The notes under the pieces: model-generated
The model's database searches: none
What the model was told of the DNA's origin: nothing
What the model saw: the letters and a program-made list of their open reading frames with translations, nothing else
In this document: positions 20,339-54,717 of the stretch, one piece after another
How the letters are laid out: each line of letters starts with the position of its first letter
Position numbering within the stretch: the stretch's first letter is position 1
DNA from: Deltaproteobacteria bacterium
GTDB lineage: Bacteria > Desulfobacterota > Syntrophorhabdia > Syntrophorhabdales > Syntrophorhabdaceae
Length of the DNA stretch: 60,214 bases
Direction of reading: 5' to 3'
NCBI GenBank assembly: GCA_022711595.1
Contig: JAKLET010000014.1
Span: forward strand, 1-60,214
Made by a program: the position numbers and the translations under genes

Positions 20339-21526
20339 CTAGAGAATTTTATTGAGCACCGGCACACGGAGCAGGACGTGGTATGCCAGGAGGAAACACA
20401 GCGGGACACAGATCAGGCTCGCAATGGCCCACTTGAACACAGGCGCGACAATGATCGTCTGCATCACGAGTGTCACGGCGATTATTATCGGCGGATGGAA
20501 CACATAGACGGCAAAGGCGCTGTCGGATAATTTTCGCGCGAGATTGCCTCCGAAATTGAGCTTGTCACGGAACAGGGCCATCAAACCCACCGTCATAGAC
20601 ACGGCAACGAAGGATTCCCATAAGGCAAAGGAAATGCTGAGCCAGGAAACTCCCCCGCCGAAGCTTCCGGTGAAGGGTTTTATGTTCAGGGTATGTGCCG
20701 AAAAATCATAGACCCCGGCTATAAGTTTGAGCACAAACAGACCGGCAAGGCCGATAATGAGGCCCGCTATCAGCCATCTTTTGCCGACAGCCGAAGTGAT
20801 GCGTTCGTAAAAGTTCGTGCGGTATGCGAGTATCCCGGCAATGTACAGGACAATGTACGAGGAAAAATAGCAAAGCTGCATCCCCCAGAACATGGTACCC
20901 AGGGGAAAGACCAGCCTGATGAGGAAGGCCCCGACCGCGATGATCATGATCAGCGCGGTCAATGTACCGAAGGTCGTGCTGCCACGATCCGCCCCTGTGT
21001 TTGCGGTCCCCGGCCGGATGGTCTTCAGCAGCGCGTATATGATCGAAAAGATCAGGAGCGCCAACGCGAACCACATCGGCCCGATGCCGAGAAGGTGCAT
21101 CCCGGCTGACATAAGGTATTTCCAATAAAATTCAAAAAAGCTAGACGCACCATACGTCCATGCCGGTGACGGTACTTCCACCCAGATTATGAAGGGGGTC
21201 ACCGCCAGCAGATAGACCAGCGATGGCAGTCCCAGCCGCCTCCAGCGGTCCTTCAAAAAGCGGCCAAGGCCCTTTCTGTCAAGGGCACCCGGCGTAAAAT
21301 AACCGGCCACCAGGAACAGCAGGCCCATGGAAAAACCCTGAACGAATGTTTGGAAAAGGCCGAAAAAGACCTGACCGAAAAATTCTTTTGCATGGTGCTC
21401 GTTGTAATACCACAGGCCAAGGTTGCTGTAGGTCACGGCAAGATGCAGCGAAATGACCAGCATGATGACCGCCACCCGCAGGTTGTCTATATAGTAATAT
21501 CTGACCGTGCTTTTCATGGAAGCCAT
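20339..21526 (-). CDS. Acyltransferase-3 (OafA/YrhL) family membrane protein
   Basis: The protein has 395 residues and about ten membrane segments. The first reads YYYIDNLRVAVIMLVISLHL, in which R and H of the family's R/E-L-R-h--H-- motif are visible. GLLFLVAGYFTPGALDRKG and FLKDRWRRLGLPSLVYLL follow. These enzymes transfer O-acyl groups to extracytoplasmic glycans such as O-antigen or peptidoglycan. It stands alone. A distinct paralogue lies at 43794-44918. Confidence 0.85.
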   Translation of the reverse strand: MASMKSTVRYYYIDNLRVAVIMLVISLHLAVTYSNLGLWYYNEHHAKEFFGQVFFGLFQTFVQGFSMGLLFLVAGYFTPGALDRKGLGRFLKDRWRRLGLPSLVYLLAVTPFIIWVEVPSPAWTYGASSFFEFYWKYLMSAGMHLLGIGPMWFALALLIFSIIYALLKTIRPGTANTGADRGSTTFGTLTALIMIIAVGAFLIRLVFPLGTMFWGMQLCYFSSYIVLYIAGILAYRTNFYERITSAVGKRWLIAGLIIGLAGLFVLKLIAGVYDFSAHTLNIKPFTGSFGGGVSWLSISFALWESFVAVSMTVGLMALFRDKLNFGGNLARKLSDSAFAVYVFHPPIIIAVTLVMQTIIVAPVFKWAIASLICVPLCFLLAYHVLLRVPVLNKIL

Positions 21527-30071: not shown

Positions 30072-31367
30072 ATGCGGGACGCACAGGTTTCCGGGTTTTT
30101 GGACAGCAGGGCGCAACCCGTTCCTCCCGATGAAAGAATGTCCTGTCCGCAGGAAGGTTCCATGCGTCACCTGCGGGTCCTTTATGCTGCCTTTGATGCC
30201 TATCCGGGCCTCAAGGGGGCGCAGGCACACATCAGGGCAAATCTGCGCGCGCTGACTGACGGCGGCGGCCGGGCGACCCTCCTGTGTCTGGGACCGGGCG
30301 GCAGCTTCCGGGACCCGGACAGCGGCGCCATGGTGTATGCATTCGCAGCGGGCGAACAGAACATGCTGCGCCGGAGCGAACTGTTCGGCAGATTCCTGAC
30401 CGCAATGGCGGACACGATGATCGCCTGCCCTCCCCCGATCATCCATTTCCGCGATATCTGGAGCGGGATGCCGTTTCTTTCCCACGAAATCTCAAGGCAA
30501 AGCAAACTGGTGTTTGAGGTCAACGGCCTGCCCTCGGTGGAGCTGCCGAGTCACTACCCGCGGCTGGCGGGCAACACTCCCCTGTTGTCCCGGCTCCGCG
30601 GGATGGAAGATGAATGCCTGACCCGATGTGACAGGGTGATTACGGTCTGCCGCCGCACGGCAAGCTACCTGGCACGGCGCGGATGTGACGAGGGAAAGAT
30701 CACAGTCATACCCAATGCAGCCGGTCCTTTCTTGTCCAGCGAAACACTCCATGAGGAAACGGCCCTTTTAAAAGGAACCGTTCCGGAAGGCAGAAAGGTC
30801 ATTCTCTATGTCGGCACCCTGGCTCCATGGCAGGGGTTGTATATCCTTCTGGATGCGATATCTCACCTTGGCCATCGAAACGACTTTTCGCTCGTCGTGG
30901 CCGCCTCGAACAAAAAAGGGGTTGCCCGGTTCAGAAAACAGGTCGCGGCCAGGGGCATGGGCGAACGGGTGACCGTATTGAGCGGGGTCCGTTACCGCGA
31001 GATGCCTTCCCTTTACAGGCAGGCATATCTTTCCGTGGCCCCGCTGGCACGGGGAGCGCGCAACGAACTGCAGGGATGCTGTCCGCTGAAAATAATCGAA
31101 TCAATGGCCTGCGGTACCCCTGTCGTAGCGTCCGATCTGCCGGCCGTACGGGAACTGGTCTGCTCCCGGGATGATGGTGTGCTGGTCCCGCCTGGTTCCC
31201 CGCGGGCGCTGGCGGGTGCCCTGGATCAGTTGATGGATGACGAGGTTTTGCGCGACAGGCTGGCGCGGGGGGCACACGTGAAGGCACGACAGGTTTTCAC
31301 GGCCGGGCTGCTTGCGCAGCGGCTTGGCGAGGTATATACTTTGCTGCTGGAAGGGGGAAAAGAGTGA
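30072..31367 (+). CDS. GT4-family glycosyltransferase (operon gene 1)
   Basis: The GT-B core begins at RVLYAAFDAYPGLKGAQAHI, so ATG 30162 may be the true start. ATG 30072 has GGGAGG just before it, and the frame is open to 29961. The domain shows an N-terminal acceptor half with HFRDIWSGMPFL, then VITVCRRTASYLARRG, the NDP-sugar half KVILYVGTLAPWQGLYILLD, and the retaining-enzyme E-x7-E region IIESMACGTPVVASDLPAVR. It should add a sugar from a nucleotide donor at the cytoplasmic face. The stop overlaps the next start (GTGA), the first of a chain of coupled genes through 35693. Confidence 0.85.
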   Translation: MRDAQVSGFLDSRAQPVPPDERMSCPQEGSMRHLRVLYAAFDAYPGLKGAQAHIRANLRALTDGGGRATLLCLGPGGSFRDPDSGAMVYAFAAGEQNMLRRSELFGRFLTAMADTMIACPPPIIHFRDIWSGMPFLSHEISRQSKLVFEVNGLPSVELPSHYPRLAGNTPLLSRLRGMEDECLTRCDRVITVCRRTASYLARRGCDEGKITVIPNAAGPFLSSETLHEETALLKGTVPEGRKVILYVGTLAPWQGLYILLDAISHLGHRNDFSLVVAASNKKGVARFRKQVAARGMGERVTVLSGVRYREMPSLYRQAYLSVAPLARGARNELQGCCPLKIIESMACGTPVVASDLPAVRELVCSRDDGVLVPPGSPRALAGALDQLMDDEVLRDRLARGAHVKARQVFTAGLLAQRLGEVYTLLLEGGKE

Positions 31368-32248
31368 AAGATCCGATCGGGGAAGGAAAAGAGTTGTACA
31401 GCGCCGGCCGGCTGCACGGCGAATGGCCAGCGGATGAACTGCTTGCAAGGATCGAAACCATGAGGGTATTCAGGGAGTCCCTGCCGGTTAAGAAAAGGAA
31501 GATGAGGCGCTTGCTGATCGCCGGCATAGTTGCGGCAATCGTTTTTGCCATTCTGTGCGCCGCGCTGCCGGGCGCGGCAGGTGGTCTTTGCGTGATAGGT
31601 TTGATCGCCGGCATAGTTTTGTTCATTGTTTCCATCGTGATGCTCATCAAGCTGGGTGTTAAGGCCTACGACGAGGACGCCGCCACCGTGCTCGGCGCCA
31701 TCGCCCGGTGCATCGGACCCGATCTGGCAAAGGGTTCCCGGTTCAAGGTGAGCGCGAGTCTCAAGCCGCCCACGGCATCCGATCTCCTGGTGAAGAAGGG
31801 AGATGAATACTCAACCGATAAATACCCGAAATGCCATGACAAGTTCTACAAGCGGGAGATCATGAACCTGGAATGCCGCCTCTCTGACAAGACCAGGCTT
31901 CAGGCGGACATAGTGGAACATACGATCGAGAAGGTGCTTTCAAAGAAAAATGCGCGCGGGAAGTGGAAAACGAAGAAAAAATACCGGAGAAAGGTCGGAT
32001 TCAGGGTGCGCCTGCAGCTGGACAGCAGCTGCAGCCGGATGACGGGCGCATTCAAGCTGCCCCCCGAAACGTCGGTCCGGGTCCGTCAGCATCCGCGCGG
32101 TGCCCTGGTCTTTCTCTCGTTGAGGAAAAGCTTTACCGATAAGCAGCGCCTGAATGCACAGCCGCTTCTGGCGGTCCTCGCCGGGGCCTACCAGGCGTTT
32201 ACCCCGGTGCAGCAGAACAACCCGACCCCCTCCGGAGGTGTACAATGA
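31364..32248 (+). CDS. Membrane protein of the glycosyltransferase operon (gene 2)
   Basis: The protein has 294 residues from GTG 31364, overlapping gene 1 by four bases. Two adjacent membrane segments at about 49-70 (RLLIAGIVAAIVFAILCAAL) and 74-98 form a hairpin. The rest, about 190 residues, is basic and presumably cytoplasmic (RLSDKTRLQADIVEHTIEKV, RKVGFRVRLQLDSSCSRMTG, QHPRGALVFLSLRKSF). The N-terminus before the membrane hairpin is also soluble. No family is recognised. Its place between glycosyltransferase genes suggests it helps an envelope glycan or a modified peptide. Confidence 0.75.
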   Translation: MKDPIGEGKELYSAGRLHGEWPADELLARIETMRVFRESLPVKKRKMRRLLIAGIVAAIVFAILCAALPGAAGGLCVIGLIAGIVLFIVSIVMLIKLGVKAYDEDAATVLGAIARCIGPDLAKGSRFKVSASLKPPTASDLLVKKGDEYSTDKYPKCHDKFYKREIMNLECRLSDKTRLQADIVEHTIEKVLSKKNARGKWKTKKKYRRKVGFRVRLQLDSSCSRMTGAFKLPPETSVRVRQHPRGALVFLSLRKSFTDKQRLNAQPLLAVLAGAYQAFTPVQQNNPTPSGGVQ

Positions 32249-32643
32249 CCCAATGTGCTCAACGGACAGGTTTTTTAACCTTTACCATGTGTGGGGAGCC
32301 CGCCGTGGCTGTCTGTGCCAACTGCGGAAAGCCGATCTGCGCGAACCACCTCCAGGGCGATCTCTCGGGACCGCGCTGCCCCGATTGCGCCGTGATCGGG
32401 CTTGACCCTGATGAGGCTTCACGGCGCGGCCTTGATTCCTCTTATCACAGGTGGTCCTCGAGCCACTACACCGACACGGGTACATATACCCCGTCTGATT
32501 ACGATAATTTTGATTCAGGCGGCGGGGAGATGGCCGGGGGAGGTGCCGGTGACGATTGGGACGACAGCGGTGATGTCGACGATTCCGATTCCGGTTCGGA
32601 TTCCGATTCCGATGGAGAAGGCGGCGGTTTTCAGGACAGTTGA
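32245..32643 (+). CDS. Zinc-binding-type protein with acidic Ser/Asp-rich tail (gene 3)
   Basis: The protein has 132 residues and starts in an ATGA overlap with gene 2. The N-terminal half has CGEPAVAVCANCGKPICANH and then CPDC, which is a B-box/zinc-ribbon-like set of Cys and His ligands. The C-terminal half is low in complexity: a Tyr/Ser/Thr stretch (YHRWSSSHYTDTGTYTPSDY) and then Gly, Asp and Ser (DDSDSGSDSDSDGEGGG). It could be a glycosylated or otherwise modified substrate of the operon's enzymes, or an adaptor of the gene-2 membrane protein. Neither is shown by the sequence. Confidence 0.75.
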   Translation: MTQCAQRTGFLTFTMCGEPAVAVCANCGKPICANHLQGDLSGPRCPDCAVIGLDPDEASRRGLDSSYHRWSSSHYTDTGTYTPSDYDNFDSGGGEMAGGGAGDDWDDSGDVDDSDSGSDSDSDGEGGGFQDS

Positions 32644-33767
32644 GAAAAATGGTCCCCATCATCTGGATCACCGAGCGCCACAACCCGAACAGCGGAGGGA
32701 TGGCAGTTTCCTCCACCCGGCTGGTGAACGCCCTGCAGGACAGGGGGCACTGCGTCACCGTGCTGCACCTGGCAAAGAGGCCTTCAAACGACGACGACAC
32801 TTCTTTCCACTTTCAGGACCTTGAGGGGCAATGGAATGCTGCATTGGGCAATGGCGATCTGGAGAGGCTCTTCTTCCTGAAGCGCCGCAGTATGGAAGGC
32901 TGCCTGCTGGTCGGTTTCGGCGGCGGCATACCGGGCTACCTGGCCTCGCTGTGGGGAAAGTGGCTCGGGGTTCCGTGCGTTGCCATGTTCCGCGGCAACG
33001 ACCTTGACCGGCTCAGCCATGATCCGGGCCAGGGGTGGATGGTGCACCGGACCATAAGGCAGGCCGATCTCGTCTGTGCGGTTTCCAGCGAGATGCGTTC
33101 CAGAATAGCGGGCATGCGGGAAGGGCCGGTCCTGTTCACTCCTGTCGGCATTATCCCGGATGAGTGGACAATCTTTCCGTCCGACCATGAAGCCGCTGCC
33201 GCGATACGCACCAGGCATGCCCCTGACGGCCGCCCTCTGATCGGGATCTTTGGCCAGCTCAAGTATAAAAAGGGACTGTCTGTTGCTATTGATGTTTTCC
33301 ACAACTATGGTATGGGCACGCACGCCCGGCTTCTTACCGTGGGGGACATGCCGGATGATGAACGGGTGAAGATTAAAGGAGCCTGTTCCTGGTTTTGGAG
33401 CGAGGAGCCGTTTGTTCCACGTAAGGCCTTGATCCCTTATTACCTGGCCTGTGATGTTGTCTTTATCCCTTCCCTTTATGATGGTATGCCCAATGTCCTT
33501 TTGGAGGCCATGGCGTGCGGACTGCCGGTGGTGGGCAGCCGGGCGGGGGGTATACCGGATGTCATAAGCGACGGAACAGACGGATTTCTGTTCGATGCCG
33601 GAGATGGCGTTGGAGCAGCGGATACCCTGTCCCGGGTGCTCTCGTATCTTCCCGGGGCACGACACCGGATCGGAGAAGCGGCCCGCAAGACCGTGACGAC
33701 ACGGTTCACCGGCGTCCACGAGGCTGATATACTGGAGTCCGCCTTGCTTCAACTGGCGGAAGGGTAG
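32640..33767 (+). CDS. GT4-family glycosyltransferase (gene 4)
   Basis: The protein has 375 residues from a TTG start in a TTGA overlap with gene 3; ATG 32649 is an alternative start. The GT-B fold is clear: IIWITERHNPNSGGMAVSST, ACDVVFIPSLYDGMPNVLLE and AMACGLPVVGSRAGGIPDVI, the standard GT4 sugar-nucleotide loop with E-x7-E. It differs from the gene-1 enzyme over most of its length, so the two likely act in sequence on one glycan. The next gene starts two bases after its stop. Confidence 0.85.
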   Translation: MRKMVPIIWITERHNPNSGGMAVSSTRLVNALQDRGHCVTVLHLAKRPSNDDDTSFHFQDLEGQWNAALGNGDLERLFFLKRRSMEGCLLVGFGGGIPGYLASLWGKWLGVPCVAMFRGNDLDRLSHDPGQGWMVHRTIRQADLVCAVSSEMRSRIAGMREGPVLFTPVGIIPDEWTIFPSDHEAAAAIRTRHAPDGRPLIGIFGQLKYKKGLSVAIDVFHNYGMGTHARLLTVGDMPDDERVKIKGACSWFWSEEPFVPRKALIPYYLACDVVFIPSLYDGMPNVLLEAMACGLPVVGSRAGGIPDVISDGTDGFLFDAGDGVGAADTLSRVLSYLPGARHRIGEAARKTVTTRFTGVHEADILESALLQLAEG

Positions 33768-33768
33768 G

Positions 33769-34800
33769 ATGGATTTCGCTGCTGCCATCAGTTCCGATCC
33801 GGCCAGTCTTGAAGCGCTTGCGCGCCTTGGTGCCGAGCCGAGCCCCGACCTGCCGGTCCTTACCGTGAAGGTCAAACTGCTCTGGCACTGCAACCTCTCC
33901 TGTGTTTTCTGCCGGCTTCCCGAACCTTGCGGTGTAATGTCCCGAGATACATCCCTGGCCCTCGGTCGGGAGCTTGCGGCACAGGGCCTGCGAAAGGTGC
34001 ATTTTTCCGGCGGAGAGGTCCTTCTGCACCCTGATTGTTTTGCCATCTTTGCAGATTGGGCAGGGCTTGGCATACAGGTAAATCTGACGAGCAACGGCTT
34101 TCTCATGGGCAAGGAGGAGGTGCGGTCACTGGAGGTATCGGGGGTCCACTCCGTCTCGCTTTCGATCGACTCCGCCGACCGTAAGGTCCACGACAAATTG
34201 CGGGGTAAAAAGGGCTCCCAAAAAGCCGTGGTCCGGGCGGCGCAGCGTATAGCTGAAAGAGGCAGGACCAGGCTGCGCATCAATACGGTTGTGACCTCCC
34301 GCAATATTCAAGGGCTTGCCGAAATGAGAGAGTTCGTTCGCGGGCTGGGCGCCAGCGTTTCCTGGAAGTTAATCCCCGTTGACCCGTTCACGTCCGGCCT
34401 GCTTCCCTCAGCCGCGGAAGTGGAAAAGGCGGCGGCGCATACCCTCCAGTGGGAGGAACTGGAGGACCGTACGCCCTTCGGCAGTAACCCCGGCCACTAT
34501 CGTGAAACAGCGGCGGGCAGGCACGGTTTTCGCAGGAACACCTGTTATGCGCCCTGGTTCAACCTGTTCTTCGCCCCGGAAGGTGCCTGCTATCCATGCT
34601 GCATGGCGCGCGGAACGACAAAGCCCCTCGGAAGATATCCCGAACTGTCGGTACGGCAGGTCCTGCAGGGTGGGCCTATGCGTGAGTTCAGATCGCTTAT
34701 GGCATCGGGAGGGCGCCTTGATGCATGTACCCGATGCGACGATTTCCTGGCCGAAGGAAGGGCCATTGAAAGACTTCTTGACGGTATGGACAGGACATGA
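33769..34800 (+). CDS. Radical SAM protein with SPASM-like C-terminal cysteines (gene 5)
   Basis: The protein has 343 residues. The CxxxCxxC motif LLWHCNLSCVFCRLPE lies at about residues 39-54. HFSGGEVLLHPDCF gives the SAM-binding GGE, and SVSLSIDSADRKVHD is typical of the core barrel. The C-terminal part has CYAPWFNLFFAPEGACYPCC and a later CTRCDDF, the arrangement of a SPASM/twitch auxiliary [4Fe-4S] site. Such enzymes modify peptides, sugars or cofactors by hydrogen abstraction. In this operon the target may be a sugar carrier or the gene-3 product. The stop overlaps the next start (ATGA). Confidence 0.9.
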   Translation: MDFAAAISSDPASLEALARLGAEPSPDLPVLTVKVKLLWHCNLSCVFCRLPEPCGVMSRDTSLALGRELAAQGLRKVHFSGGEVLLHPDCFAIFADWAGLGIQVNLTSNGFLMGKEEVRSLEVSGVHSVSLSIDSADRKVHDKLRGKKGSQKAVVRAAQRIAERGRTRLRINTVVTSRNIQGLAEMREFVRGLGASVSWKLIPVDPFTSGLLPSAAEVEKAAAHTLQWEELEDRTPFGSNPGHYRETAAGRHGFRRNTCYAPWFNLFFAPEGACYPCCMARGTTKPLGRYPELSVRQVLQGGPMREFRSLMASGGRLDACTRCDDFLAEGRAIERLLDGMDRT

Positions 34801-35693
34801 TCCTTTACTATGCACTTGGCGGGGGGCTGGGCCATATCTCCCGCTCTTTCGCACTCATAGCGCATGCCCCGAAACCGCTTCAGCCCCGTATACGCCTGCT
34901 CGTTTCCAGCAAGAGCGCATACGTGGCCCGTCCCCATTCCCCGTGCCCTGTTGACGAGGTGCCGCGGTGGGCAATGACAGGCAAAGGGCGCTATCCGCAG
35001 TTCCTTGCCGATCATTTCAGGCAACACGGCTTTTCATGCATCGTGATAGACACATTTCCCTTTGGTCTGCTGGGGGAGTTGAAACATGTGGCGCCGGAGC
35101 TTCCCCGCGTGCTGGTGGGTCGTTACCTGCGATGGGGTGCATACATCGGCCGGTGCGGAGAAACGGACGATGCGGTCTGGCCGCAGGTTGCGGTCATGAT
35201 AGAGCAGCAGGAGGACGAGTATCTGGAGCAGATGGAACGCAACGGCCGTGTCATCAACGCCCCATGGCCGATATCGCTTGCGCGGCTGGCAGATGCAGAA
35301 GGCCCTGCGGGAAAACCTGCCTGCTGTGTAGTCCACAGCGGGACACCGTCAGAAACGCGCCGGTTGATGTCCGCAGCGCGAAATATTATGTCCGGGCACA
35401 GGATAGCCGGCCCTCCGGAATTGTTCACGCCGGAAAAAGGCCTGTTTCCCTTGGAGCGTCACGTGCTGCGTTTCAGCGATATAGTTACGGGGGCAGGGTA
35501 TGGCAGCTGCGCTGCCGCGGCGGTGTTGAACGGCCGGATACGGTATCACCTGCATCCTTTCCGCAGGAGGTTCGATGACCAGACGCTCAGGCTGCGGCGC
35601 CTGCAGGAAGGGAGGTGGGGCAACTACCTGTCGGGCGATGCCTCAACCGTTGCGGAGATCCTCTGGAACAACGTCACAGCTTTTTTGAAATGA
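34797..35693 (+). CDS. MurG/GT28-like glycosyltransferase (gene 6)
   Basis: The protein has 298 residues. The N-terminus MILYYALGGGLGHISRSFAL is the glycine-rich GGGxGH loop of GT28/GT1-type GT-B enzymes. The C-terminal half shows the expected second site near FSDIVTGAGYGSCAAAAVLN. It is shorter than MurG (about 360 residues), and the donor-binding region is poorly conserved. It starts in an ATGA overlap with the radical SAM gene and ends the coupled operon. Its 3' end overlaps the epimerase gene on the other strand by 20 bases. Confidence 0.65.
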   Translation: MILYYALGGGLGHISRSFALIAHAPKPLQPRIRLLVSSKSAYVARPHSPCPVDEVPRWAMTGKGRYPQFLADHFRQHGFSCIVIDTFPFGLLGELKHVAPELPRVLVGRYLRWGAYIGRCGETDDAVWPQVAVMIEQQEDEYLEQMERNGRVINAPWPISLARLADAEGPAGKPACCVVHSGTPSETRRLMSAARNIMSGHRIAGPPELFTPEKGLFPLERHVLRFSDIVTGAGYGSCAAAAVLNGRIRYHLHPFRRRFDDQTLRLRRLQEGRWGNYLSGDASTVAEILWNNVTAFLK

Positions 35694-36621
35694 ATTCCCT
35701 GAACCATTCAACCTCCCGTTCCAGGCCTTCATAAAGACCCGTGGAAGGCTGATAGCCCAGGAGGCTGCGTGCCTTGCCTATGTTTGCCCGTGTCCTGATC
35801 TGATCGCCCGCCCTTTCAGCTATTGTGTTAATGCTGATCTTTTTACCCAGGATCTTCTCAACCATCATGATCCCTTCCGCCGTGGAAACGGCCGTTTCGG
35901 ACCCTATGTTGAAGATCTCCCCGGGGCATCTGTCAATATTGTCAACGACCAGGGTGAGCCCGAGGACTGCGTCGTCGACATAGGTATAGCTCCGCATGTG
36001 CTCCGCGCTTGTGCGGAACAGGTTGAACGGTTTGTTTTCAAGCGCGCAGCGTATTAGCTGGAAGTAAAGCTTGTCGGGCCTTTCACGGGGACCGTATACG
36101 GAGAACAGTCTCACGGAACATCCCGGAAGGTTATTATTTCGCGTCCGTGCGAGCACGAGTTGTTCCGCCGCAAGCTTGGTCACCCCGTAAACAGATACGG
36201 GTTTGGGCTCGGAAGTTTCAGATCCGCCGGCGTTGGCACCGTAGACCGATGAAGACGAAACATACACCAGTATTTTGAGAGAGGGAGAATGCTTCACGCT
36301 CTCCAGCAGATTATGGGTTGCAAGAACATTGTTCTTCCAGTATTCGGTGAAATGCACATCCGGTGAAATGCTTGGCTGGGCGGCGAGGTGAAAGACGATA
36401 TCCATTCCCTGAACGGCATGGGATATATCATCTTTTGCCAGATCGAGCTGCCGGACTTTTATCCCTTTGCCTGAAAGGGCCTTCAGGTTGTCTTTCTTCA
36501 GCGAGCGTGCGTAGAAATCCGTCAGGCAATCGAGGCCCTCGACATCATGGCCCAGAAACGAGATCCTTTCCGCAAGATGAGAACCAATAAAGCCGGCCGC
36601 TCCTGTTACAAGTATTCTCAT
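35674..36621 (-). CDS. NAD-dependent nucleotide-sugar epimerase/dehydratase
   Basis: The protein has 315 residues with the extended short-chain dehydrogenase layout. NAD-binding is GAAGFIGSH at the start, followed by DIVFHLAAQPS, YVSSSSVYGANAGG and the catalytic SVYGVTKLAAEQ (Tyr-x3-Lys). RLFSVYGPRERPD and EIFNIGSE complete the fold. Closest in look are UDP-glucose/UDP-glucuronate 4-epimerases. It probably feeds a nucleotide sugar to the glycosyltransferases of the convergent operon, with which it overlaps tail to tail. Confidence 0.9.
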   Translation of the reverse strand: MRILVTGAAGFIGSHLAERISFLGHDVEGLDCLTDFYARSLKKDNLKALSGKGIKVRQLDLAKDDISHAVQGMDIVFHLAAQPSISPDVHFTEYWKNNVLATHNLLESVKHSPSLKILVYVSSSSVYGANAGGSETSEPKPVSVYGVTKLAAEQLVLARTRNNNLPGCSVRLFSVYGPRERPDKLYFQLIRCALENKPFNLFRTSAEHMRSYTYVDDAVLGLTLVVDNIDRCPGEIFNIGSETAVSTAEGIMMVEKILGKKISINTIAERAGDQIRTRANIGKARSLLGYQPSTGLYEGLEREVEWFREFISKKL

Positions 36622-43793: not shown

Positions 43794-44918
43794 TCAGAGC
43801 ACCCTGCCGGCCGGCGTCCTGCGCAAAAGCGCGGTCAGTGCCCAGCTTCCCGCCAGGCCGATCGAAAAGGAGATGAGGAACTTCACGAAGGCTGGAAGAG
43901 GCTGCCCGACGAGCATGTACTGGGCCCAGGTCACGAAGGCGTAGTGAAAAATGTAGATGCCGTAGGCGTTGTCCGAGAGATTGTCGAACACAGACCGGGC
44001 GGTCCTGAAGAACCTGCGGGCAATGCCCAGAGCGGCAAGGTTTGTGAAAACACAGCATAAGGCGAAGCTTGTGATCTGGAGGACATTCGACGCGTATGGC
44101 GGCATGCCGGCGGAATACATTTCGCTGAGCCCGTTAACGAGATAACCAAACGCTCCTATGGCAAGCCAGAGGGGCCAGGGCCTCAGGTTCTCGCGAGAGA
44201 GCGAGCGTCCCATGTCCGCGCCTCCAAGGGCGACTCCAAGCAGGAACCAGGTGAAATATAACAGGACCCTGGAAGCATGTGCCAGGCCCAGCGGCCCTAT
44301 CAGGCCAATCGAGTCCGGCCACGGGAGCAGCTTTGCGGGAATGGCTGTTGTCAGGGTTGCCGCTAGGAAAACGGCAGCCAGGCCGGCCGGCGATCCGGCA
44401 GTCCAGGAAAATTTCTTCATGAGACCGGGGAAGATCCGGAACACGGCGGCGGCGACAAGACAGAACGCGATCAAAACCCAGATGAACCAGAGCGGCCCCG
44501 AGTTCCAGTACCTGCCGGTGAAAAAACTGTCCAGGAAGCCGCCCCGGCCGGCATGATCGCTTAAGAGCCAGGACGGATAGAAGGCTATCGGACTTAGCAC
44601 AACGGAGGCGGCAACGAAGGGTATACCGAGACGCTTCAGGCGGTCTGTCAGGAAGCGGCCTGCACCTTTGCGCGAGATGGATGGCGCCACGAACAGCCCG
44701 GAGATAAAGAACATGAGGGACATGAAGAAGATGTCGTTCCAGCCCACAAGGATATTGAGAGGGGAAAAGCGGACCGTGTCGACAACCGGTGCGGAGGATT
44801 CCAGGTAATGCGCCGGGTCAAAATGACTGAACGTTGTGTATGCCAGCGCGGCGTGGTGGGCGACCACGGACATGTTCACGAAACTGCGCAGATAGTCGAT
44901 ACCCACATCACGGCCCAT
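43794..44918 (-). CDS. Acyltransferase-3 family membrane protein, second copy
   Basis: The start MGRDVGIDYLRSF (44918) follows TGGAGGAACCGG and gives 374 residues; the frame extends to 44984 without a site. About ten membrane segments are present. The family motifs read YLRSFVNMSVVAHHAALAYT, MFFISGLFVAPSISRKGAGR and FLTDRLKRLGIPFVAASVVL. It shares this layout with 20339-21526 but the sequences differ widely, so it is a distinct paralogue. It should acylate an envelope glycan. Confidence 0.85.
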   Translation of the reverse strand: MGRDVGIDYLRSFVNMSVVAHHAALAYTTFSHFDPAHYLESSAPVVDTVRFSPLNILVGWNDIFFMSLMFFISGLFVAPSISRKGAGRFLTDRLKRLGIPFVAASVVLSPIAFYPSWLLSDHAGRGGFLDSFFTGRYWNSGPLWFIWVLIAFCLVAAAVFRIFPGLMKKFSWTAGSPAGLAAVFLAATLTTAIPAKLLPWPDSIGLIGPLGLAHASRVLLYFTWFLLGVALGGADMGRSLSRENLRPWPLWLAIGAFGYLVNGLSEMYSAGMPPYASNVLQITSFALCCVFTNLAALGIARRFFRTARSVFDNLSDNAYGIYIFHYAFVTWAQYMLVGQPLPAFVKFLISFSIGLAGSWALTALLRRTPAGRVL

Positions 44919-45223
44919 CCGGTTCCTCCAATGTAAAAGCTCGCAGTGTTTAAAATCGCGTCCCGATCCGCAAGCCCTTGACAAAGGGCCTGTCCAGCGA
45001 TTGGGCTGTAAAAAATGTGATTGTTTATATCATCTTCGGTTTCTTAAAATCCAGCATTATAACCCAACCTGCCCCCCCCGATGAGAAGATCCGGCCCGCG
45101 GGGATCCGGCCGGTCATTTTACGGCCGCGAAATTGCACGTTGACTGGCCCGACGGAGAATTGTAATATTTGGGCAATTGCAGTATGCCGCACATTAACCT
45201 TGATAAACCCACGGTAAGGAGCT
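44919..45223. other. Intergenic interval, nothing firm
   Basis: Space between the divergent acyltransferase and methyltransferase genes. A small hairpin (GCCCTT-GACA-AAGGGC near 44973) and GC-rich partial palindromes near 45090-45130 are present. No gene or clear promoter was identified. Confidence 0.5.
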
Positions 45224-51273: not shown

Positions 51274-54200
51274 TTATTCTGTGCCAGCCTCGCCGGCGGA
51301 TGACCGGAGGGCGGGGATAAGATGTGCGTCTATAAATCCCGGGGCATTGTCGGGGTCCACATGATTTATCACGTTTGTCCCTACCACCACGTTGGGCCCG
51401 CCCGCGCACTGGTCTGTGCAGAAACGCGCCTTTATCCTGAACCGTTCTGAAAGGCCCCTCTTTCGCAGCTCCGCGGAGAGGCCCTCAAGGAGATGGAACG
51501 ATCCCTTAAGGTAGCAGCTTGTGCCGAGACAGACACCGACATCTATGGGCGCATTGTCCCGGAGAAGCTCTTCCACTGTTTCCTGTACCCGCATGGAGCG
51601 GCGCCGATACGTGGTGTGAAGGTTATGATGGGACAGGGTTCCGTCGGGTTCGCCGAGCCAGTTTGTGTAGATGGCCTGTATGGTGGGGTTGTCCTGGCTC
51701 CTCTTAATGGGCGAGATCTCATCAAGGCGGTAGAGCACCTCGAGCCTGTCTTCGGGGTCGCTTGTCAGTTTCGGCGTGGGATTGCCCGAGCCGTTTATGC
51801 AGCCGCCGGGACATGCCATCACCTCTATGAGGTCATACGGGGCGTCCCCGGCACGCATCCTGTCGATGAGGTCCTGAGCGTTTTGAAGACCGCTCACCAC
51901 GGCGAGGCGCACCACGGTGTCACCGAGTTTGATCGTTGTTTCCTTGACCCCGTTGAGACCGCGAACCTGTTCGTAGGTGAAACCCTCCATCCTTTTTCCG
52001 ATGACCCTTTCGGCAGCCAGCCGCAGGGCGGCCTCGGCAACGCCGCCGCTTGCTCCGAAGATGACTCCCGCGCCGCTCACCTTTCCGAAAAAGGCATCGA
52101 CAGGCACAGGCTTGATGGTCTTCGGGTCCATTCCGCGCTCCTCGAACATCTTGATAACCTCTGTCGTAGTGAGCACCGCATCCACGTCGGAGAAGCCCCC
52201 CTGGTTGAACTCGGGCCGCCGGGCTTCATATTTCTTGGCGTTGCAGGGCATGACTGAAACAAAGAAGAGGTGTTCGGGCGGCACCTTGAGCTGACGCGCG
52301 AAATACTGTTTCATGACGGAGCCGAACATCTGCTGGGGAGACTTGCAAGAGGAGAGATGGGGGAGAATGTCCGGCGCCATCTTCTCGCAATAGTTCACCC
52401 ATGCGGGACAGCAGGATGTGATCTGGGGGAGGACACCTCCTTCCGCCACACGGCTTAAGAATTCCGTGCCTTCTTCCATAATGGTGAGATCGGCCGCCCA
52501 GCATGTATCGAAGACGAAATCGAAACCGACATCTTTGAGGCCCGCCGACAGTACCGCCATGACCTCCGTTGCATCTATGCCGTAATGCTGCCCGAAGGTT
52601 GCCCGGACCGCCGGGGCTATCTGGGCAACGACAGTGAGATTGGGGTCGTGAAGGGCACGGTAGATGTCGGGGATCACCGGTTTAAAGGAGAGTGCCCCCG
52701 TGGGGCACGTCGTGGCGCAGTGACCGCAGGCAACACAGACGGTCATATCGAGGGGGCGGTGGTCATTGGGGCCTATGGTGAGGACATTGTCTGTCTCATA
52801 GAAAGACAGGGCCGATGAGCCTTCCATTTCACGGCAGATCTTGAGGCAGAGCCCGCAGAGAATACATTTCCCGGGGTCACGGACGATAAAGGGGTGGTTA
52901 TCGTCAATAGGCAGCGGGCGCGCAGGGGTTGGCTGATCGAATTCCACACCGTATTCGCTCGCGTAACGCCTCAGTGAACACGCATAGCGCTCCGTGCAGC
53001 CGCAGGAAAGGCACCGTTTCGCTTCGCGCATGGCGATCTTCTCGTCCCATGTCCGGGTGGATTCCCGAAAGTTCTCCTTCCTGGTCTCCGGCGCAAGGGT
53101 GAAGACCTCGAGCCTCTGCGCCGGGGCCACCCATTTATACTCGTCGGGAGGGATCTTGCTCCAGTGTCCTTTTGAGCAGTTGTAAGGTTCAAAAAGAGGT
53201 GTGCATTTTCCTGTGCGAAGGTACTCATCGATCTCAAGGGCGGCCCTCTTGCCCGCACCAATGGCGTTGATGGCGATATCGGGTCCGCTCACGCAGTCCC
53301 CCCCGGAAAAGACCCCGGGGATGGATGTCTCCGTGGTGGCTCCGCCGGTGAGGACCGTGCCGTGCTTCGTTGTCACATCGTCCCTGGCGATACATTCGTT
53401 GTCCACGATCTGCCCGATGGCGGTGATGATAGTCGAGCAGACAATGGTGAATTCAGATCCTTCCACCGGGACAGGGCGGCGCCTCCCGCTGGCATCGGGT
53501 TCACCAAGCTCCATCCTCATGCATCTGAGGGACAGCCCGCCGTTTTCCCGCCCGATGGAAACAGGCGCGGTGAGATACATGAGCTGGGCACCTTCTTCGA
53601 CGGCCTCTTCGATCTCAATGTCCTGGGCCGGCATCTCGGCCCTTGTCCTCCGGTATGCCACGATCACCTTTTCTGTTCCCAGGCGGATCGCGCTGCGGGC
53701 GGCGTCCATGGCGGTATTTCCGCCTCCGAAGACCACAACGCAGTCACCGAGGTCCGGTCTTTCGTTTCTCGCTATTCGGGCAAGGAGGTCAAGACCCGTC
53801 ATGACTCCGGGGAGGTCCTCTCCCGGTATGGCCATACGTGAAGATCTCTGGGCGCCTATCCCGAGGAATATGGCCTCGTACCCATCACGTTTCAGTGACT
53901 GAATAGTGAAGTCCTTTCCCAGTTCCCGGTTGTACCGCACGTCGATATTGAGGCTGAGGATGGCCCGGATCTCCCGGTCGAGTGTGTCTTCCGGCAGGCG
54001 GTAATAAGGGATGCCCCATCTGAGCATTCCGCCGGCTGCTTCCTGTTTTTCGAATATGGTGACCTGATGGCCGAGGCAACGTAGGAAATACGCGCATGTA
54101 AGCCCTGCGGGGCCCGCGCCGACAACGGCCACCCTGCGTCCTGTATCCGGCGATACGGGAGGCGTGTATTCCACGGTCTGATAGCTGTCAAAGTCTCCTA

Positions 54201-54717
54201 CGAAACGCTTTACCCCATTTATGTTCACCGGGGAGTCTACCGCGTTCCTGCGGCACTCTTGCTCACAGGGGTGGGGACAGACCCTGCCGCATACTGAGGG
54301 AAAGGGGTTATTTTCCTTGATGACCGCAAGGGCTTCGACAAAATTCCCGTTGGCCACGTGGTACAGGTACTTTTGTATGTCAATATGGGCAGGACAGCGG
54401 GCAACGCAGGGTGCGACGCAATCGCCGTAGTGATTGCGCAGAAGTGCTTGAAGGTATATCCTCCGGAAACTTTCAAGGGCGGGAGATATGGTGTTGATGA
54501 CCATCCCTTCCGCTATGGCGGTGGAGGTTGCCGAAACTATGCGGGACCTCCCATTCTCCTGCATTTCGACCACGGAGATCTCGATGCTGGTCGGGGGGCT
54601 TACCCTGGGGTCATACCCGAGGCTGGGTATGTCTATCCCGTTTTCACGGGCCGCGTCTATTATGGTGCTGCCTTCTCTTGCGGAACAGGTTGTATTATCT
54701 ATCGTTAGCGTCGCCAA
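51274..54717 (-). CDS. [FeFe]-hydrogenase fused to a GltD-like flavin/NAD(P) module and NuoE-like domain
   Basis: The protein has 1147 residues. In order it shows a plant-type ferredoxin-like fold at about 1-80 without cluster cysteines, an Fer4_20-like cluster region (C100, C104, C108; C143, C147, C151, C155), and a GltD-type FAD/NAD(P) domain (VVGAGPAGLTCAYFL at 198, VVFGGGNTAMDAA at 328). Two ferredoxin clusters follow (CILCGLCLKIC, CVACGHCATTC). The H-cluster domain has ITSCCPAWV (769-770), MPCNAKKYEARRPEF (825) and ACPGGCINGSGNP (969, 973), then a small-subunit-like IYTNWLGEPDGTLSHHNLHT. A [2Fe-2S] thioredoxin-like tail has C1063, C1068, C1100 and C1104. It should couple H2 to NAD(P)H/ferredoxin in the cytoplasm. 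No maturases lie here. Confidence 0.92.
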   Translation of the reverse strand: MATLTIDNTTCSAREGSTIIDAARENGIDIPSLGYDPRVSPPTSIEISVVEMQENGRSRIVSATSTAIAEGMVINTISPALESFRRIYLQALLRNHYGDCVAPCVARCPAHIDIQKYLYHVANGNFVEALAVIKENNPFPSVCGRVCPHPCEQECRRNAVDSPVNINGVKRFVGDFDSYQTVEYTPPVSPDTGRRVAVVGAGPAGLTCAYFLRCLGHQVTIFEKQEAAGGMLRWGIPYYRLPEDTLDREIRAILSLNIDVRYNRELGKDFTIQSLKRDGYEAIFLGIGAQRSSRMAIPGEDLPGVMTGLDLLARIARNERPDLGDCVVVFGGGNTAMDAARSAIRLGTEKVIVAYRRTRAEMPAQDIEIEEAVEEGAQLMYLTAPVSIGRENGGLSLRCMRMELGEPDASGRRRPVPVEGSEFTIVCSTIITAIGQIVDNECIARDDVTTKHGTVLTGGATTETSIPGVFSGGDCVSGPDIAINAIGAGKRAALEIDEYLRTGKCTPLFEPYNCSKGHWSKIPPDEYKWVAPAQRLEVFTLAPETRKENFRESTRTWDEKIAMREAKRCLSCGCTERYACSLRRYASEYGVEFDQPTPARPLPIDDNHPFIVRDPGKCILCGLCLKICREMEGSSALSFYETDNVLTIGPNDHRPLDMTVCVACGHCATTCPTGALSFKPVIPDIYRALHDPNLTVVAQIAPAVRATFGQHYGIDATEVMAVLSAGLKDVGFDFVFDTCWAADLTIMEEGTEFLSRVAEGGVLPQITSCCPAWVNYCEKMAPDILPHLSSCKSPQQMFGSVMKQYFARQLKVPPEHLFFVSVMPCNAKKYEARRPEFNQGGFSDVDAVLTTTEVIKMFEERGMDPKTIKPVPVDAFFGKVSGAGVIFGASGGVAEAALRLAAERVIGKRMEGFTYEQVRGLNGVKETTIKLGDTVVRLAVVSGLQNAQDLIDRMRAGDAPYDLIEVMACPGGCINGSGNPTPKLTSDPEDRLEVLYRLDEISPIKRSQDNPTIQAIYTNWLGEPDGTLSHHNLHTTYRRRSMRVQETVEELLRDNAPIDVGVCLGTSCYLKGSFHLLEGLSAELRKRGLSERFRIKARFCTDQCAGGPNVVVGTNVINHVDPDNAPGFIDAHLIPALRSSAGEAGTE

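Follow-up and report, generated by a model that had tools for sequence, protein, structure and literature searches.

What might a set of glycosyltransferases make when its genes are coupled, end to end, with those of a radical SAM enzyme and of two proteins that fit no family? This question is raised by six genes on the + strand (30162-35693) of the 60,214-nucleotide stretch of DNA analysed here (the window), which are followed by a convergent epimerase gene on the - strand. Related genes were compared at seven loci from three lineages: the window, L015 and L016 in the same genus; L014, L021 and L022 in the family designated f8; and L032 in the genome G318. The features are:

30162-31367, + strand: gene 1, the glycosyltransferase GT4a (Pfam Glycos_transf_1, 3e-29; homologues in L015 and L032)
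31364-32248, + strand: gene 2, a basic membrane protein (homologues in L015, L016, L014, L021 and L022)
32245-32643, + strand: gene 3, a protein with an eight-ligand Cys/His head and an acidic tail with GGGEMAGGGAGDDW (ligands invariant at the seven loci)
32640-33767, + strand: gene 4, the glycosyltransferase GT4b (Pfam; possible start at ATG 32649; adjoins gene 3 at all seven loci)
33769-34800, + strand: gene 5, a radical SAM/SPASM enzyme (Pfam Radical_SAM, 3e-20, and SPASM, 9e-8; alignment)
34797-35693, + strand: gene 6, a GT-B fold protein and probable glycosyltransferase resembling GT28/GT1 (Foldseek, VIA-align, motifs)
35674-36621, - strand: an NAD-dependent sugar-nucleotide epimerase/dehydratase of the SDR type (Pfam Epimerase, 8e-48)

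The open reading frames and their junctions bear out a preliminary description of the six genes as one coupled unit. Adjacent genes overlap by GTGA at the gene 1/2 junction (31364-31367) and by ATGA at the gene 2/3 (32245-32248) and gene 5/6 (34797-34800) junctions, as described, while the supposed two-base step between genes 4 and 5 is a one-base gap (33767/33769). The TTGA overlap of genes 3 and 4 (32640-32643) is present but hinges on the start of gene 4. Because homology with a relative starts at residue 4, translation may begin at ATG 32649 rather than TTG 32640, and the overlap would therefore become a 5-base gap. The open reading frame of gene 1 can be extended upstream, in frame, to ATG 30072 or TTG 29961, so the frame described from 30072 exists; however, homology with a relative starts at residue 31 of that version, making ATG 30162 the most likely start. 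The 20-base tail overlap of gene 6 with the epimerase gene holds in the window but is not kept in two relatives, which have gaps of 14 and 20 bases. Since two other genomes show the order again, with proteins that are 47-69% identical, the six-gene arrangement is more than chance. The operon genes have a G+C content of 57.7-61.4%, against near 52% in the epimerase gene and several neighbours, a contrast that may reflect separate origins.

The cassette is rare, at least in the phylum, within which the profiles were run. As a single query, gene 2 found two relatives when the other 11 genomes of the genus were searched, and in the phylum a single distant one; its alignment found 3 of the 12 genomes of its own genus and 4 of 395 sampled phylum genomes, namely that of the window and three that belong to one genus of family f8. 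Gene 3 was found in the same four phylum genomes plus G318, with no other match among 12 genomes of the class of G318, and exact peptide seeds run against a collection of 84,980 species genomes returned the same two genus relatives. In the four phylum genomes the membrane/zinc pair always adjoins a GT4 glycosyltransferase. A wide occurrence of the pair apart from the enzymes, which would have counted against the preliminary description, was looked for within the phylum and not found there.

The loci differ in how much of the cassette they hold. L015 (an uncultured proteobacterium MAG) matches the window in all seven genes, in their order and in their orientation, at 51-68% identity, with junctions that are likewise overlapping or near-overlapping. 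L016 (an uncultured delta proteobacterium MAG), whose contig starts inside gene 2, has gene 2, gene 3, GT4b, gene 6 and the convergent epimerase gene; the epimerase is 67-68% identical and convergent in both. The three f8 loci carry genes 2, 3 and GT4b alone, beside a NiFe hydrogenase cluster, and a gene 6 relative lies elsewhere in one of these genomes. In L032, from a genome listed with 6% contamination, homologues of GT4a (1e-43), GT4b (4e-41), gene 3 (2e-11) and gene 6 (2e-4 by iterated profile; pairwise z of 9.4 over shuffles) are clustered, and a basic membrane protein occupies the place of gene 2. Homology of that protein to gene 2 has no statistical support (z of 0.6-3.4). Since gene 3 adjoins GT4b at all seven loci, this pair forms the core and the radical SAM gene is an accessory.

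The core glycosyltransferase and GT4a are of a familiar type. Both pass the Glycos_transf_1 gathering cut-off of 26.4 bits (102.1 bits for gene 1 and 87.4 for gene 4), and in fold and catalytic domain they resemble the BshA/MshA/PimB' type of GT4 (PF00534, PF13692). By sequence, the nearest solved structure to gene 4 is BshA (4e-20), and those to gene 1 are Tll1590 and a 3c4q/3c48 glycosyltransferase. Unlike the named GT4 types, however, they score far under every NCBIfam equivalog cut-off; the epimerase is also under all such cut-offs. Gene 1 is 57% identical to its L015 homologue. Pfam thus upheld the assignment of two GT4 enzymes, a radical SAM/SPASM enzyme and an SDR epimerase, and the third glycosyltransferase is supported by a modelled GT-B fold.

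That third enzyme, the product of gene 6, has no match over cut-off in Pfam (including GT28) or NCBIfam. Its low-confidence model (pLDDT 55) matches a GT1-type enzyme in Foldseek (6e-5) and, in VIA-align, PimB' (Z 13.5), WaaA (12.8), UrdGT2 (12.5) and MurG (12.2); the alignment with MurG covers 150 residues at 3.0 A, which places the protein in the GT-B fold, at a pLDDT of only 55. It shares with MurG/GT28 and GT1 enzymes this fold and the GAGYxS and DDQ motifs, within a series DTFPxG ... GAGYxS ... RxDDQ of which DTFPxG, GAGY and RxDDQ are kept across five sequences, but at 298 residues it is shorter than those enzymes and belongs to no Pfam family. Transferase activity is probable rather than proven, since nucleotide-sugar 2-epimerases, such as the UDP-GlcNAc 2-epimerases, have the same fold. 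G119 has a gene 6 relative on a contig other than that of the cassette, in overlap with a potassium-channel-like gene (L031:9005-10740).

The head of gene 3 reads C-x11-C-x7-C-x2-C-x4-C-x2-H-x9-C-x2-C, and all eight ligands are invariant at the seven loci (L032 has x6 before the last pair); their number would fit two zinc ions. No Pfam family matches over cut-off. The spacing of the Cys/His pairs is similar to that of B-box type zinc fingers and DUF2180 (E of 0.03-0.04; 15.0 bits for the B-box, under its 24.1 cut-off), from which gene 3 differs in its tail and in its set of eight ligands, which includes one more Cys on the N-terminal side. The protein is acidic at every locus (pI 4.1-4.7) and ends in -[DE]S at all seven, though the tail diverges. 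The preliminary description took the tail to be Ser/Thr/Asp-rich and a possible modified substrate, an idea that is not supported: together, Ser and Thr account for 12-23% of its residues across loci, and the Ser-Asp repeat occurs only in the window's genome and its closest relatives in the genus. What is conserved besides the ligands is the acidity of the protein and its C-terminal end. In L032 and the genus the tail also has a glycine-rich stretch that reads GGG-(EM or TF)-GGGGASG-W or nearly so. This GGGGASGDW-type motif is thus present in two of the three lineages and absent from family f8.

A GGGGxFGGGGASGDW-type motif is common to gene 3 and to TPM-domain (YgcG-type) proteins, and in this genus and its order such proteins (L062-L067) terminate in GGGGDFGGGGASGDW. 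The motif is C-terminal in the TPM proteins but internal in gene 3, which is without a TPM domain. The likeness may be due to either descent or convergence.

Gene 2 likewise has no match over cut-off in Pfam or NCBIfam. Its AlphaFold model (pLDDT 77) has an N-terminal helix and a predicted hairpin of two membrane-like helices, after which long antiparallel strands make up the C-terminal domain; this beta-rich domain carries a conserved NPRGKWKTKKKY-type strand. Foldseek gave no match to the model below 1e-3, and the VIA-align matches to actin capping protein, Atg10 and type III chaperone/YbjN-like chains (Z of 5-7.8) were set aside as being in the uninformative range. The pI is 10.1 in the window and 10.1-10.7 across loci, counting in L032 the protein in gene 2's role. 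In a simple hydropathy scan only a single membrane helix passes in the genus, as against two in family f8. Since the hairpin is flanked by basic sequence on both sides, the positive-inside rule would place both ends of the protein in the cytosol.

The radical SAM/SPASM enzyme had been taken as a defining partner of the glycosyltransferases, and this is not supported. Gene 5 itself is a clear family member, scoring over cut-off for Radical_SAM (73.3 bits) and SPASM (32.8 bits). It shares the CxxxCxxC core and SPASM cysteines with GeoRSP, the heme b synthase AhbD, viperin and BlsE (C259, C277, C278, C320 and C323 in addition to the core), and the core cysteines are invariant in four sequences. 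It differs from GeoRSP and AhbD in scoring 79-85 bits against cut-offs of 400-500 (79.2 against 400 for GeoRSP), from prokaryotic viperin in scoring 61.8 bits against the viperin_w_prok cut-off of 180 in NCBIfam, and from known radical SAM/SPASM systems in being accessory in its cassette and in having no PqqD partner, since a Pfam scan detected no PqqD-like recognition domain within the operon. The gene is intact in the cluster at two of the seven loci. In L016 its place between GT4b and gene 6 is taken by 39 bases (2326-2364), a 12-codon in-frame reading frame, MDIAAAGTGMTT-stop, whose first six codons match the gene 5 start (MDFAAA) in 14 of 18 bases and whose end resembles the gene 5 end (GMDRT-stop), with a local score reached by 0.15% of shuffles. 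This remnant is most simply read as what an internal deletion that kept the frame has left of the radical SAM gene, the alternative being misassembly of the MAG; elsewhere in that genome there is no strong gene 5 orthologue (at most 97 bits, where the operon copies score 736-748). The L032 cluster showed no radical SAM gene, and in family f8 two of the three genomes have a gene 5 relative on another contig (199 bits). That one relative keeps only a gene remnant argues that the enzyme tailors the product and does not make it. The unlinked f8 relatives are followed by a conserved, uncharacterised, beta-rich-looking protein with a signal-like N-terminus (L053:1724-2341 and L054:619-1284); its homology to a neighbour in L032 was considered and dropped (z of 2.7 only).

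As had been proposed, the surroundings of the operon do not appear to be those of an O-antigen or capsule locus: when the translations of the ORFs between about 18 and 52 kb were read by eye, no flippase, polymerase, ligase, Wzx/Wzy or ABC exporter was recognised. Two acyltransferase-3-like membrane proteins, also identified by eye, flank the operon about 7-9 kb off (20339-21526 and 43794-44984), and at 51274-54717 lies a 1147-residue protein that appears to be a GltD-like oxidoreductase fused to an iron-only hydrogenase domain.

The zinc protein is steadily paired with a GT4, genes 2 and 3 are opposite in charge, and no flippase, polymerase or ligase was recognised nearby. These features suggest that the operon could encode a cytosolic glycosylation complex that is tethered to the membrane and has the zinc protein as its adaptor, and this is the reading that we tentatively prefer. 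Gene 2 would sit in the inner membrane with both ends cytosolic, presenting a strongly basic, beta-rich platform. Gene 3, binding zinc by its eight ligands, would dock by its acidic, glycine-rich tail on this platform and on the glycosyltransferases, a step suggested by charge and co-location, opposite charges being common. GT4a, GT4b and the GT-B enzyme may then add sugars sequentially to a lipid or small-molecule acceptor, with the epimerase providing a modified nucleotide sugar and the radical SAM/SPASM enzyme an optional tailoring step in some species. The full complex would not be universal, because the f8 core is without an adjoining GT4a and gene 6. A rather doubtful account has the enzymes form an ordinary pathway to a short oligosaccharide of the glycolipid or exopolysaccharide kind, with genes 2 and 3 in an accessory or regulatory role outside any enzyme complex. 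Glycan loci commonly contain such parts as two GT4s, an epimerase and a MurG/GT1-like GT-B enzyme, but other glycan genes were not recognised nearby, and since genes 2-4 form a unit without the other enzymes in family f8, genes 2 and 3 seem tied to GT4b itself.

It is unlikely, for its part, that gene 3, a small protein with a zinc head, serves as the acceptor, its tail receiving sugars from the glycosyltransferases and, in certain species, a further modification from the radical SAM/SPASM enzyme. Peptides are often the targets of SPASM enzymes, gene 3 always adjoins GT4b, and its -[DE]S end is kept at all seven loci despite the divergence of the tail; however, the lack of a detected PqqD-like domain in the operon, the dispensability of the radical SAM gene, the unconserved Ser/Asp repeat and the Ser plus Thr content of 12-23% all speak against such a role. 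A bolder idea, that gene 3 is a new class of encoded carrier with a zinc-stapled head and a recognition tail, held at the membrane by gene 2 while the glycosyltransferases and optionally the radical SAM/SPASM enzyme build or attach the sugar, is improbable. Very improbable is a conflict or defence cassette, even though GT4b lies close to the GT4-conflict family (PF20706; 25.9 bits, just under the cut-off of 26.0, with the L032 homologue over it at 35.1), the radical SAM core matches prokaryotic viperins (pVip, 1.5e-20) and presence is patchy, in 3 of 12 genomes of the genus. The pVip match spans the radical SAM core only, the NCBIfam viperin score is low, as given above, gene 5 carries a SPASM domain, and PADLOC finds no other part in the operon, so that a known defence system was rejected. 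A phage or plasmid origin was likewise rejected, genes 2 and 6 being absent from the plasmid records and viral contigs searched; their absence from viral contigs also counts against a conflict cassette. A PHROGs search returned no match to gene 2, gene 3 or gene 6.

The cassette is apparently undescribed. Among open-licence papers, no description was found under the gene combination, the GT4-conflict name, the GGGGASG motif or the TPM tails, and a paper on conflict systems covers vWA/MoxR systems, unlike this cassette (PMC7159879). As a recurrent unit, it links GT4 glycosyltransferases with three unclassified partners, namely the families of the zinc/acidic and the basic membrane proteins and a GT-B enzyme, and this linkage is a first functional lead for them. 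The presence of a TPM-type GGGGASGDW motif on a protein without a TPM domain, moreover, makes the role of that motif testable.
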